The notes under the pieces are model-generated. The model made no database searches. It was given only the letters and a program-made list of their open reading frames with translations, and was not told the DNA's origin. A stretch of 64,000 nucleotides of DNA from assembly GCA_019454145.1 (NCBI GenBank), contig CP075366.1, positions 847,564 through 911,563 of the forward strand, read 5' to 3'. Positions 40,636-45,258 of the stretch are shown here, piece by piece. The number at the start of each line of letters is the position of its first letter. Position 1 is the first letter of the stretch. The position numbers and the translations under genes were made by a program. Source of the stretch: Fimbriimonadaceae bacterium. Lineage in GTDB: Bacteria > Armatimonadota > Fimbriimonadia > Fimbriimonadales > Fimbriimonadaceae.

Positions 40636-41172
40636 TTACGGTCTGTAATCAAATTCAACTTCAGGTGAATACGCGCCGCCTTCCCAAAAAGTAAGCAGTT
40701 TATTCCCAGCCAAATCTGGATTGTCATAAACCAACCCAGTTCCTACGAAGTGCGCTCTGACTTTGTAAGTGCCCGGCTGCGGTCGCCTTCCTCCTGGCCC
40801 TTTTGTCGTGTAGATATTCAAGTTCAGCACTAGCTCATAACTTGCTTTGGGAGCGAGCGAAACTAGGTAGTCATCCATTCGACCAGAAATCCGTCCAAAC
40901 CCGCTCGGTGCATAAAGCCAGTCAACTTTTGAGCCATTAACTTCGGCAATTAGTTTTACAGACGTTGGCCGAAGTGTTTGACCATTTGCAAGCGAACTGC
41001 CGAGGTTAAGATGAATCGCCTGGTCCGATTCATTGATAAACTTCAGATGAAACTCACCTTGCGAATTGGTCGGTTCAAGTATCAATCCTAGCGGAGGAAG
41101 TTGTGCAGTTGAATCAAGTGCCGGAGTAGAGGCTACTCCTAGCAATGCGGAAGCGATCAAGGTTGTTATCAT
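40636..41172 (-). CDS. secreted hypothetical protein, beta-sandwich-like
   Basis: A 178-aa exported protein (signal peptide to about STPA, residue 18). The mature chain alternates strands and turns, such as GLILEPTNSQGEFHLKFINE, HLNLGSSLANG and YELVLNLNIYTTKGPGG, in the manner of an immunoglobulin-like or C2-like domain. It has a Gly/Arg-rich turn (GPGGRRPQPGTY) and a C-terminal acidic strand. No Cys. A GGAGAAGG purine run precedes the ATG by 7 nt. It follows MetH on the same strand after 65 nt. I do not recognise a family. Confidence 0.55.
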   Translation of the reverse strand: MITTLIASALLGVASTPALDSTAQLPPLGLILEPTNSQGEFHLKFINESDQAIHLNLGSSLANGQTLRPTSVKLIAEVNGSKVDWLYAPSGFGRISGRMDDYLVSLAPKASYELVLNLNIYTTKGPGGRRPQPGTYKVRAHFVGTGLVYDNPDLAGNKLLTFWEGGAYSPEVEFDYRP

Positions 41173-41237
41173 CGGTGCGCCTTCTCCAACTGCCCTTACT
41201 GCACAATAGACGCCTTTTGTGCAAATAGGTTACTGAA

Positions 41238-42905
41238 TTACTTGATATTAAAATACTTCGCCGCTGGGTGGTGGACGATGATGGCCGACGTGCTCTGCTC
41301 CGGTTCTAGCATAAATTCCTCGCTCAATTTGATCCCAATATCCTCCGGCTGGAGCAGTTCCATCAGCATGGATTGGTCTTCCAAATTGGGGCATGCGGGG
41401 TAGCCAAACGAATAGCGGCTACCTTGATACCGCGCGGCGAACAGCAGCCGCTTATCTTCGGGATCGTTGTGGCCGAATCCCATTTCGTGACGCATGGATT
41501 TGTGCCAATACTCTGCAAGCGCTTCGGCGGTTTCTACCCCCATTCCGTGAGTGTAAAGGTATTCCTGAAAATCTCCATCGGCGAACTGATTGCGCTCGTG
41601 TTCGCTTACTTCTCCACCAACGGTGACGATGCTAAACCCGACAACATCGACTTCTCCGCTTTCTGTACTCCTAAAAAAGTCACTGAGGCACAGACGCTTG
41701 CCATCGCGTTGGCGCGGAAATTGGAATCGGCAACGCTCGGACTTTGCATCCTCTTGCAAAATGATCAGGTCATTCCCTTCGCTTTGGCAATAAAAGTAAC
41801 CCCACTTTACTGCTGGCTTCATGATATTGGCGAGTTCGCGTTGTTTACGAACAAAAATTGGGCGCACGTTTTCTTCTAACCAAGCTGTGAACTGTGGATT
41901 CGTTAAATCTTCCGGCTTTTTGTACTGCCACTGACCTCTAAAAAGCGCGACAGGATTGATATATTGGTAAAGCTCAAATATGTCAAAGTCTGTACGTTTC
42001 TTTACTCCATAAAACGGGATATCTGGCACGGTTTCAGCTGGTTCAATCGCGCTCTTGGTGCCATCAAAAACATACAATTCTGGATCACGGTCGGGCAACC
42101 GATGGCTCAAAACCCGTACTTGCGCCTTTGGTTCGGCTTTTACCGGATTTTCTGCCGTTTCTGAGCATAATTCGCCCATTAAGTGCAGACCTTCAAAGGC
42201 ATCTTGAGCATAAAATACTCGCCCATTATAGATGCTCCGGAGGTCTTCTTCGACGTATCCACGAGTTAATGCGGCACCACCCAGAATTACGGGATAATGT
42301 TGTAAATTTCGCGCATTCATTTCCAGCAAATTATCGCGCATTACCAACGTACTCTTAACAAGTAAGCCGCTGAGACCGATCACTTGGCAGTTGTTAACTT
42401 CTGCTTCGCTCAAGATATTGTTAATCGGTTGTTTAATACCAATATTGACAACTCGATAACCATTATTACTCAGAATAATATCAACTAAGTTTTTACCAAT
42501 ATCATGAACATCGCCCGCAACAGTAGCTAGCAGAATTGATCCTTTTTCAGAGCCTTCAACCTTCTCCATCAGGGGTTCAAGGTGCCGCACCGCTGCCTTC
42601 ATCACTTCCGCTGACTGCAGAACAAACGGCAATTGCATTTTGCCCGCCCCGAACAGCTCTCCAACTGTTTTCATCCCGTCGAGAAGAATGTCGTTGATAA
42701 TCGCAAGCGGTTCGTAAGTTTTGAGCGCATCGTCTAAGTGCGCGTCTAGGCTCTTTTTAATGCCTTCAATGATGTGCTTTTTCAGGCGATCTTCGGCCGA
42801 GAGCTCAGCAAATGGATCGACACTGGTATCCACTGCTTTCACGTTTTCAAACCGCGCCATCAATTCAATCAGCGGGTCGTAAATAACTTCTCTTTCGTCG
42901 GGCAT
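41238..42905 (-). CDS. C-terminal half of cobalamin-dependent methionine synthase (split MetH)
   Basis: A 555-aa protein equal to the last three modules of MetH. Residues about 35-120 are the helical cobalamin cap, and 120-250 the B12 domain with DVHDIGKN (132-139, His134 being the lower axial cobalt ligand) and IGLSGLLVKS. Residues about 290-555 are the AdoMet-dependent reactivation domain, with RYSFGYPACPNLEDQ (497 onward). The homocysteine-binding and methyltetrahydrofolate barrels that make up the N-terminal half are absent, and the reading frame does not continue. They must be encoded elsewhere for methionine synthesis. There is no cobalamin riboswitch in the 55-nt gap upstream. Confidence 0.88.
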   Translation of the reverse strand: MPDEREVIYDPLIELMARFENVKAVDTSVDPFAELSAEDRLKKHIIEGIKKSLDAHLDDALKTYEPLAIINDILLDGMKTVGELFGAGKMQLPFVLQSAEVMKAAVRHLEPLMEKVEGSEKGSILLATVAGDVHDIGKNLVDIILSNNGYRVVNIGIKQPINNILSEAEVNNCQVIGLSGLLVKSTLVMRDNLLEMNARNLQHYPVILGGAALTRGYVEEDLRSIYNGRVFYAQDAFEGLHLMGELCSETAENPVKAEPKAQVRVLSHRLPDRDPELYVFDGTKSAIEPAETVPDIPFYGVKKRTDFDIFELYQYINPVALFRGQWQYKKPEDLTNPQFTAWLEENVRPIFVRKQRELANIMKPAVKWGYFYCQSEGNDLIILQEDAKSERCRFQFPRQRDGKRLCLSDFFRSTESGEVDVVGFSIVTVGGEVSEHERNQFADGDFQEYLYTHGMGVETAEALAEYWHKSMRHEMGFGHNDPEDKRLLFAARYQGSRYSFGYPACPNLEDQSMLMELLQPEDIGIKLSEEFMLEPEQSTSAIIVHHPAAKYFNIK

Positions 42906-42960: not shown

Positions 42961-43437
42961 TCACAAATCACGAAGACAAGCCAAAATAGCATCACGATCC
43001 GGAACATCCCGCAACTGCGCGGTTACTTCGCTGTACCGAATCACGCCTTCACTATCGATCACAAAGGCTGCGCGTAAACTGCTCGGCCCAAGCCCGGCGA
43101 AATCTTCTAGAACTACATCGTAGGCCGTTACAACCTCACGCTTGAAATCACTGAGAAGCGGAATCTTGATTCCGGCGGATTTTGCCCAGCCCGCTTGGGC
43201 GAACGCCGAATCAACACTGATCCCATATACAGCTGCACCAGCATCCTCGAACTCATCTAATCCGCCGGAATCGTCGCAGAGTTGGGCCGTGCAAACTCCA
43301 GTGAATGCCCCGGGAACAAAGAGTAGTAATACGGGCTCTCGACCAATATGGTCGTGTAGCCGTACCTCTTCAAGTCCGCGTTTGCCCATGGTGAGCAACG
43401 TAAAATCTGGTGCAAACTCGCCCACCTGTAAAGCCAT
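42961..43437 (-). CDS. peroxiredoxin (AhpE/BCP type)
   Basis: A 158-aa thiol peroxidase that reduces hydrogen peroxide and organic peroxides in the cytoplasm. The peroxidatic site is FVPGAFTGVCTAQLC: Cys49 in the PxxxTxxC motif and Cys54 five residues on, the C-x4-C arrangement of BCP-type enzymes where the second Cys can resolve the sulfenic acid. Downstream GISVDSAFAQAGWA and FVIDSEGVIRYS are family strands. TAGGAT lies 8 nt before the ATG. It may be a one- or two-Cys enzyme; the reducing partner is not in the window. Confidence 0.88.
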   Translation of the reverse strand: MALQVGEFAPDFTLLTMGKRGLEEVRLHDHIGREPVLLLFVPGAFTGVCTAQLCDDSGGLDEFEDAGAAVYGISVDSAFAQAGWAKSAGIKIPLLSDFKREVVTAYDVVLEDFAGLGPSSLRAAFVIDSEGVIRYSEVTAQLRDVPDRDAILACLRDL

Positions 43438-43483: not shown

Positions 43484-43538
43484 ATAGAATTGTGATTAAG
43501 GAACGATTCACAACTGCACAATCGTATAGAATTGTGCA
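43484..43538 (+). promoter_or_regulatory. repeat-rich control region of the serine hydrolase gene
   Basis: A direct repeat ATAGAATTGTG occurs at 43484-43494 and 43526-43536, 42 bp (four helical turns) apart. The second copy lies in an inverted repeat TGCACAAT-N8-ATTGTGCA (43515-43538) that abuts the ATG at 43539. TAGAAT (43527-43532) would serve as a -10 placed 6 nt before the ATG. The layout fits an operator for a dimeric repressor over a leaderless promoter. Confidence 0.55.
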
Positions 43539-44894
43539 ATGATTCTCTCTTTACTAGCGGTCGCACTCGCAGATCCTTCCCCCGCAGTCACTAGCTACTT
43601 TGAGGATTTCCTCAAGCAATCCCGTATTCCCGGTATTGCCGTTCAATACGACGTTGATGGCGACGTCACGGTGCTAACAAAAGGAATTGCTGACCTTGAA
43701 AAGAAAAATGCAGTCACCCCGAATATGCTTTTTGATAGTGGATCCATCGGCAAGATGTTCACGACGGTTGTCACGCTGAAGCTAGTAGAACAAGGCAAAC
43801 TCAAGCTTACCGATACTCTGGGTAAGTATGTGAAGGAAGTTCCAAACGAGTGGAAATCGACCACAATTCAACAGTTACTATCACATACCTCTGGTTTGCC
43901 CGAATACGTCCTCTATCCTCGCATCGGGCTAATTGATTCATTTGATATGAAGACCTGGTACGAGGTGATGGCAGATAAGCCACTGGATTTTAAGCCAGGC
44001 ACCGAGTTCCAGTACAGCAACTCCAACTTTTTTATGCTGAAGGTGATTGATGAATCCGCTTCGGGCAAGAAATTTGATGATTTGCTGAAATCGAGTGTAT
44101 TCACCCCCGCCAAAATGACCGAAACAGGGCCATTGCTCACCGCCAAAGATGAAGATCGAAAACCAACCGGCTACTGGATCACACAAGAAGTCCAACCTAT
44201 CGGACCAGCAGGAGATTCCCCCGACAAAGGTTCGGGCGGTCACTTCACTACTGTTAGCGACCTAAGCAAGTTCAGCCACGCTTTATTTGGTGGCAAGCTC
44301 CTCAATGCAGAAAGTATGAAGCTCATGACCACGCCTATGGCACTCCCTAAAGGACGGAAATCTGGCTATGGGCTAGGATTATTTATCCGCAAGGTCAATG
44401 GAATAGAAATTTGGAGCCATGGCGGCAACAGCGTTGGCTACGCGGGAAGCGTGACCTATATTCCTAGTAAGAAATTAACGATCACGCTTTTAGGCAACGC
44501 ATATCAAATGACCGGTGATAATGTTGCGCTCGGCTTAGCTAGAGTTCTCTACCCAGAGCTTAACCCTAAAACTTATCAACCTGAAACCGATCCAGATAAA
44601 GAGTTTTCGCAAAAGCTCATCAGCGTAATTAAAAGCCTCGCTGCGCGCAAAATTGATGATCCGATGATGAGTGCAGAAATGCAAATGCGACTTGCCCGCC
44701 CACGCGGTCAGATGCAAGTTGGCGGATATGCTCCCTTTGCAACGGCGGAATATGATGCTTACATGGGTAGCGAACCTGCTGACCCTGATAAGATCATTCG
44801 ACTGCGAGTGAAAGTCGGCGAACGTCTTTACCTGGCGTCGTTCACTGTTGATACAGAAGGCAAAGTCTTTACTGTGGGTATGAGTCCTCTGTAA
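43539..44894 (+). CDS. serine hydrolase (class C beta-lactamase-like)
   Basis: A 451-aa penicillin-binding-fold hydrolase. The Ser-x-x-Lys nucleophile motif is SIGK (residues 69-72). The Tyr-x-Asn-type motif lies in QYSNSNFFMLK (about 166-171), and the third motif is HGG in SHGGNSVGYAG. The N-terminus is only weakly hydrophobic (MILSLLAVALADPSP), so export is likely but not certain. It may be a carboxypeptidase, esterase or peptidase rather than a resistance enzyme. A C-terminal extension of about 110 residues is rich in Ala/Arg. Its start is flanked by repeats suggesting regulated, leaderless expression. Confidence 0.85.
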   Translation: MILSLLAVALADPSPAVTSYFEDFLKQSRIPGIAVQYDVDGDVTVLTKGIADLEKKNAVTPNMLFDSGSIGKMFTTVVTLKLVEQGKLKLTDTLGKYVKEVPNEWKSTTIQQLLSHTSGLPEYVLYPRIGLIDSFDMKTWYEVMADKPLDFKPGTEFQYSNSNFFMLKVIDESASGKKFDDLLKSSVFTPAKMTETGPLLTAKDEDRKPTGYWITQEVQPIGPAGDSPDKGSGGHFTTVSDLSKFSHALFGGKLLNAESMKLMTTPMALPKGRKSGYGLGLFIRKVNGIEIWSHGGNSVGYAGSVTYIPSKKLTITLLGNAYQMTGDNVALGLARVLYPELNPKTYQPETDPDKEFSQKLISVIKSLAARKIDDPMMSAEMQMRLARPRGQMQVGGYAPFATAEYDAYMGSEPADPDKIIRLRVKVGERLYLASFTVDTEGKVFTVGMSPL

Positions 44895-44931
44895 TCTCAA
44901 CGCACCGGATCGGTTTTGCGTCTTAAATAGC

Positions 44932-45258
44932 GTGAAACCGATCTTTTTTTGTGCTCTCGCCCTGCTTATGGCGGGTTGTAATCCCACCGATGCCAAAGAT
45001 ATCACCCAAGATGCAGGCAAACTTGCGGAATCGGCGGGCCGATCTGCCGCTAACGCCAGCGTGGCGGCCAAGGTGAACACTGCCCTTGGCCTTCGAAAGA
45101 GTGTAGATATGAGCGGACTTCATGTTGAAGCTGATGGCGGAACAGTGAAAATCGGCGGTCATGTGAAAAGCAAGAAAGAAAAGGCGTTAGTGCTCGAAAT
45201 CGCCCGCGACACGCGCGGTGTTGATAAGGTGATTGACGAAATTCGAGTCGAACCTTAA
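44932..45258 (+). CDS. BON-domain lipoprotein
   Basis: A 108-aa protein starting at GTG, with a lipobox MAGC (Cys16) and one BON domain (about residues 38-106) with the usual VAAKVNTALG, LHVEADGGTVKIGGHV and IARDTRGVDKVIDEIRV segments. BON proteins such as OsmY and Kbp bind phospholipid membranes or stabilise the envelope during osmotic stress. It follows the serine hydrolase after 37 nt and may share its transcript. Between its stop and the rRNA terminator there is about 70 nt of AT-rich sequence without features. Confidence 0.8.
   Translation: MKPIFFCALALLMAGCNPTDAKDITQDAGKLAESAGRSAANASVAAKVNTALGLRKSVDMSGLHVEADGGTVKIGGHVKSKKEKALVLEIARDTRGVDKVIDEIRVEP

Follow-up and report, generated by a model that had tools for sequence, protein, structure and literature searches.

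A palindrome abutting the start codon of a putatively leaderless hydrolase gene in Fimbriimonadaceae is a probable operator of a TetR-family repressor

Autoregulated modules of the TetR family, such as those of DarR and QacR, consist of a regulator with a TetR_N helix-turn-helix domain and a palindrome that recurs in the promoter of the regulator gene and in those of a few targets. For DarR, one study places sites within the promoters of darR and of other genes, and it describes binding as a dimer of dimers on overlapping palindromes, two dimers being described for both DarR and QacR (PMC10636190). Leaderless promoters, in which the -10 element is adjacent to the ORF, are described for Deinococcus-Thermus in another study (PMC12340547). 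In BlaI-regulated beta-lactamase genes, a repressor acts in front of a gene whose product belongs to the beta-lactamase fold superfamily, which was the comparison drawn in the original prediction for the locus studied here. How does this locus compare with these systems? The kind of switch that it seems to encode is a familiar one, and its palindrome would be a well-supported new example. Its operator, TGCACRN-N10-NYGTGCA, differs in sequence and spacing from the DarR operator ATACT-N4-AGTAT given in PMC10636190. As in the Deinococcus-Thermus promoters covered by PMC12340547, there is no obvious -35, and a candidate -10 hexamer is separated by 6 nt from the start codon; unlike those, the hexamer lies inside a putative repressor palindrome, and the host belongs to Fimbriimonadaceae. 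Unlike BlaI systems, the site is tied by comparison to a TetR gene and not to BlaI, and the enzyme is closer to D-peptidases. Linkage of a TetR-family module to an S41 peptidase and to an S12-like hydrolase was not found in the literature searched, nor did that search bring up an account of a regulon like this one for Fimbriimonas or Fimbriimonadaceae.

The window, which is the whole stretch of DNA that was analysed, covers 64 kb (G000:C1:847564-911563) of the studied genome G000, a single contig of 2,758,789 bp (2.76 Mb). The original prediction had described a direct repeat with copies 42 bp apart and an inverted repeat ending just before an ATG, and both are present exactly as claimed. The inverted repeat, which we call O2 (43515-43538, no strand assigned), is formed by TGCACAAT at 43515-43522 and ATTGTGCA at 43531-43538 with 8 nt between them, and its last base adjoins the ATG at 43539; it can be written as TGCACAA-N10-TTGTGCA. 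Note that inverted repeats as such are not rare, since the window holds 51 perfect pairs with 8-bp arms and spacers of 3-20; it is the particular sequence of this palindrome that is special. When its 16-base form was searched with up to 3 mismatches, 2 matches were found where the mean is 0.31, a number that was equalled or exceeded in 7 of 100 shuffles; this test, confined to the window, is a weak one. The direct repeat ATAGAATTGTG, with copies at 43484-43494 and 43526-43536 (no strand assigned), fared differently. Its first copy is identical at only 6 of 11 positions in the closest relative, G004, and its form with up to 2 mismatches shows no enrichment in the window (17 occurrences against 15.7 expected). 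We therefore regard it as probably incidental and reject it as an operator.

The candidate -10 element, TAGAAT at 43527-43532 on the plus strand, lies within the palindrome, as had been predicted, and 6 nt before the ATG, with no match to a -35. Its first three bases (43527-43529) are an in-frame TAG stop, so that translation of the hydrolase can begin no earlier than the ATG at 43539; and because the palindrome touches this ATG, there is no Shine-Dalgarno-like stretch between the two. A scan with the sigma-70 -35/-10 consensus found no promoter at the hydrolase start. Is this -10 spacing peculiar to one gene? Among the 48 ORFs of at least 150 aa in the window, the hydrolase included, TANNNT starts 12-15 bases before the first ATG in 16 cases (5, 5, 3 and 3), while as a control the 26 offsets from 20 to 45 in the same ORFs give 14 cases altogether. 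Transcription of the hydrolase gene is thus likely to be leaderless. The divergent peroxiredoxin gene (AhpC/TSA, 42961-43437, minus strand) starts 77 nt from O2 and is probably not a target. On the other side of the hydrolase gene, a terminator-like hairpin of 15 pairs followed by T's (44907-44944) extends over the GTG that is annotated at 44932 as the start of a BON-domain lipoprotein gene.

The gene behind the palindrome (43539-44894, plus strand) encodes a secreted serine hydrolase resembling S12 peptidases, which matches the Pfam family Beta-lactamase (PF00144) with 194.9 bits against a cut-off of 27. It had been called a class C-type enzyme of the beta-lactamase fold, and a true beta-lactamase is not what the comparison points to: the score against NF033085 bla_class_C is 97.1 bits, far under the cut-off of 415, and the nearest solved structures in PDB are an alkaline D-peptidase (4y7p) and a DD-carboxypeptidase (9s7k). 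S69-x-x-K72, Y159-x-N161 and H294-G-G align with 4y7p, and we take SxxK, YxN and HGG to be the motifs of the S12/PF00144 serine hydrolase superfamily. The enzyme would be better named an S12-like serine hydrolase.

With its 14 specified bases, TGCACAA-N10-TTGTGCA has two exact places in 2,758,789 bp, where a calculation at equal base use expects about 0.01. Both copies are inside the window, 2.3 kb apart. To look for the same palindrome elsewhere in the genome had been part of the original prediction, and the second exact copy, TGCACAATAGACGCCTTTTGTGCA, is the site that we call O1 (41200-41223, no strand assigned). It is placed 27 nt upstream of the start of a minus-strand gene (40636-41172) for a protein of 178 aa with a signal-peptide-like start and no Pfam family, which is a probable second target. 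Homologues of this protein, with 27-31% identity, occur in 2 of 40 other genomes, and no site of 11/14 or better was found upstream of them in G023 and G004. O1 and the 178-aa gene are absent at the corresponding place in G004. There, other small secreted or membrane protein genes (L062, 4130-5701) replace the stretch 40636-41238, accompanied by a second match, of 37 bp, to the end of the adjoining B12-domain gene, which suggests a local rearrangement. Searches that tolerate mismatches admit background: up to 2 mismatches give 17 places in the G000 genome against 6 for a reversed-pattern control, and 1 mismatch gives 13 places in 41 genomes against 8 for the control. The argument is therefore based on exact sites. 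Two of the inexact sites may be recorded here. One, with 1 mismatch (G000:C1:1005009; L047, 4010-5737), is upstream of a TPR-S41 peptidase gene in whose 5' part stops interrupt the reading frames, and an intact paralogue of this gene lies about 3 kb from the TetR gene discussed below. The other, with 2 mismatches (TACACAATAATAGTTTTTTGTGAA on the minus strand, G000:C1:956192-956215; L048, 3693-3716; matrix score 20.7), overlaps the GTG start of a gene for a 362-aa protein with a C-terminal PEP-like motif.

The conservation of O2 was compared in the closest relative, whose hydrolase is 93% identical. The 101-bp intergenic regions of G000 and G004 align without gaps and with 80 of 101 bases identical; the palindrome is identical at 24/24 positions, against 56/77 for the remaining bases, and the identical run extends over 27 bases with the ATG included. 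Column shuffling produces a run of at least 24 identical bases in 3.2% of trials, so that conservation taken by itself is modest evidence. The palindrome is kept in the one close relative found to carry the same gene, and its absence from such relatives was what the original prediction would have taken as refutation. Among 30 hydrolase-homologue loci scanned, the site is present at 2, the window locus and that of G004 only, where 29 of the other loci scanned are distant and one locus, L014, has only 17 nt of upstream sequence.

Which regulator might read this palindrome? In 41 genomes the exact sequence TGCACAA-N10-TTGTGCA has 5 places: two are those of G000, G004 has one at its hydrolase orthologue, and G003 and G007 have one apiece. 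In the latter two, which are other species of the same genus, it is at the start of a TetR-family gene that lies between glpX and an S41-peptidase gene. The orthologue of this TetR gene in G000 (G000:C1:1474441-1475061, minus strand) is about 580 kb from the hydrolase. Its product matches the Pfam families TetR_N (PF00440, 2.8e-15) and TetR_C_27 (1.5e-6), its nearest solved structures by sequence are DarR proteins, a weak match with E about 1e-9, and its stop codon is overlapped by the ATG of the next gene, an S41 peptidase with a signal peptide. Thus a TetR-type regulator, as had been proposed, is tied to the palindrome by comparison, while its expected place nearby did not hold up: none of the 5 TetR_N matches of G000 is in the window, and a TetR regulator inside the window was rejected. 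Neither did a Pfam scan of 5 window proteins (the hydrolase and its four neighbours) reveal a regulator, and a PADLOC scan of three proteins gave no match at E <= 1e-4. Of the five TetR_N genes, the glpX-linked one alone has a site of at least 11/14 within 300 bases upstream. Another of them (L104, G000:C1:1002094-1002234) begins beside a different palindrome-like stretch, ATACCAACTGGTCGGTAT, which is possibly its own operator.

A search of 85 genomes for orthologues of the TetR protein gave matches at E <= 1e-30 in 21, and the 20 rows at E <= 2.5e-40 were used. A matching palindrome of 24-25 bp is present in the promoters of 18 of these 20 orthologues, which come from Fimbriimonadaceae genomes. 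The spacer is 10 in 14 of the 20 (at least 10 of 14 consensus bases) and 11 in four (G000, G013, G041 and G042), the last three of which, from one genus, have imperfect arms. Across the 18 orthologues, between 0 and 11 of 300 base shuffles came up to the best site. The promoters in G020 and G011 have no convincing site, the best one being reached in 78/300 and 18/300 shuffles, and for three more distant TetR paralogues the numbers are 22/300, 87/300 and 91/300. In 13 of the 20 promoters TANNNT is followed after 5-7 nt by an ATG or GTG, a count made with start codons not checked individually and with no control for chance; the three distant paralogues show the same arrangement. The S41 gene adjoins the TetR gene in 16 of the 20 loci, one of the four others being a short contig end, and glpX adjoins it in five, all of them in the genus of G000. 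When both spacings were allowed, exact TRCACAA-N10/N11-TTGTGYA was found at 7 places in 8 genomes of this genus (four TetR promoters, two hydrolase genes and one 178-aa gene), against a calculated expectation of about 0.7. Exact TRCACRA-N10-TYGTGYA has 8 places in 41 genomes, including G007:C163 and G026:C29.

Could the sites in the window be recognised from other genomes only? A matrix was made from 13 TetR sites with spacer 10, two of which have the same sequence and none of which came from G000 or G004. In a scan of the 64-kb window O1 ranked first (20.4) and O2 second (18.3), followed by a third site at 9.2, while the best of 20 shuffled windows reached 15.6. Both window sites score below every training site (22.3-32.4). 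A non-training site in G004 (L135), upstream of a TPR-S41 gene at a distance of about 3 kb from TetR, scores 23.4, and the corresponding place in G000 (L136) scores 14.1. These positions suggest secreted peptidase genes as a common theme of the sites.

Taken with the comparison, the palindrome is, with a probability of roughly three in four, the operator of the glpX-linked TetR-family repressor, lying over the -10 and the start of a leaderless hydrolase gene. The original suggestion of a repressor binding across a leaderless start appears well supported by the palindromes at TetR starts and by the -10 spacing. A TetR dimer, or a pair of dimers, would bind 43515-43538, covering the -10 and abutting the start codon; it would exclude RNA polymerase and so keep the serine hydrolase gene off, until it is released by a ligand. 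Two further binding sites are predicted for this protein, one at 41200-41223 in front of the gene for the 178-aa secreted protein and the other at the TetR-S41 promoter itself. Repression is suggested by the position of the operator at the -10 and start, and we infer binding, repression rather than activation, leaderless transcription and ligand release from sequence comparison.

The main difficulty for this repressor lies in its own promoter. In both G000 and G004 that promoter carries the variant TACACAA-N11-TTGTGTA, in which the spacer is longer by one base and TAC replaces TGC, so that one protein would have to accept spacers of 10 and 11. In G000 this site is the sole exact match of the variant in the genome, and there is no 12/14 N10 site beside it. 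These promoters give room to another explanation, that the palindrome at the hydrolase belongs to a different regulator sharing the half-site, either another TetR or a member of another helix-turn-helix family, and that the glpX-linked TetR now prefers the wider variant. The recognition region would agree with such a shift, as it reads RRTIYHHF in G000 and G004 against RRTIYNFF or RRTIYNLF in the spacer-10 genomes G007, G003 and G001. We consider this rather unlikely, because the other four TetR genes of G000 lack any site of at least 11/14 in the 300 bases before them, spacer 10 is the one in 14 of 20 orthologues, and the TetR promoter of G004 has both spacings, including an N10 site with 12/14.

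The palindrome might instead act in RNA. Transcription would then start from the other TAGAAT, at 43485-43490, and the palindrome would fold into a hairpin of 8 base pairs with an 8-nt loop right before the ATG, controlling translation at the ribosome-binding region. This upstream TAGAAT is not conserved in G004, however, where the palindrome is, and the same palindrome is found upstream of -10-like elements of TetR genes, where transcription would not cover it; control at the RNA level is accordingly very improbable. Least credible is a chance palindrome with no regulator at all. Perfect inverted repeats are common in the window, and column shuffling gives 3.2% for conservation alone, but chance would have to account for two exact genome copies that both front window genes and for a further exact copy at the start of a TetR gene in each of two other species.

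What might the glpX-linked repressor do in the cell? A wider scenario, plausible but tentative, is that this TetR, which is conserved in part of Fimbriimonadaceae and shares its locus with an S41 peptidase, controls a small regulon whose products are secreted serine peptidases and hydrolases (the S41 partner, TPR-S41 proteins, the S12-like hydrolase and the 178-aa exported protein) and senses a ligand derived from the envelope or from peptides. In this species the operator may have come to lie over the -10 and the start codon of leaderless genes, where a single bound protein would block RNA polymerase at the first codon. From a repeat that was spotted by eye, the analysis arrives at a regulator and target whose pairing can be tested, in the little-studied phylum Armatimonadota, and at a 24-bp operator motif conserved across the family; the locus would illustrate one way of joining a repressor site to a leaderless promoter.
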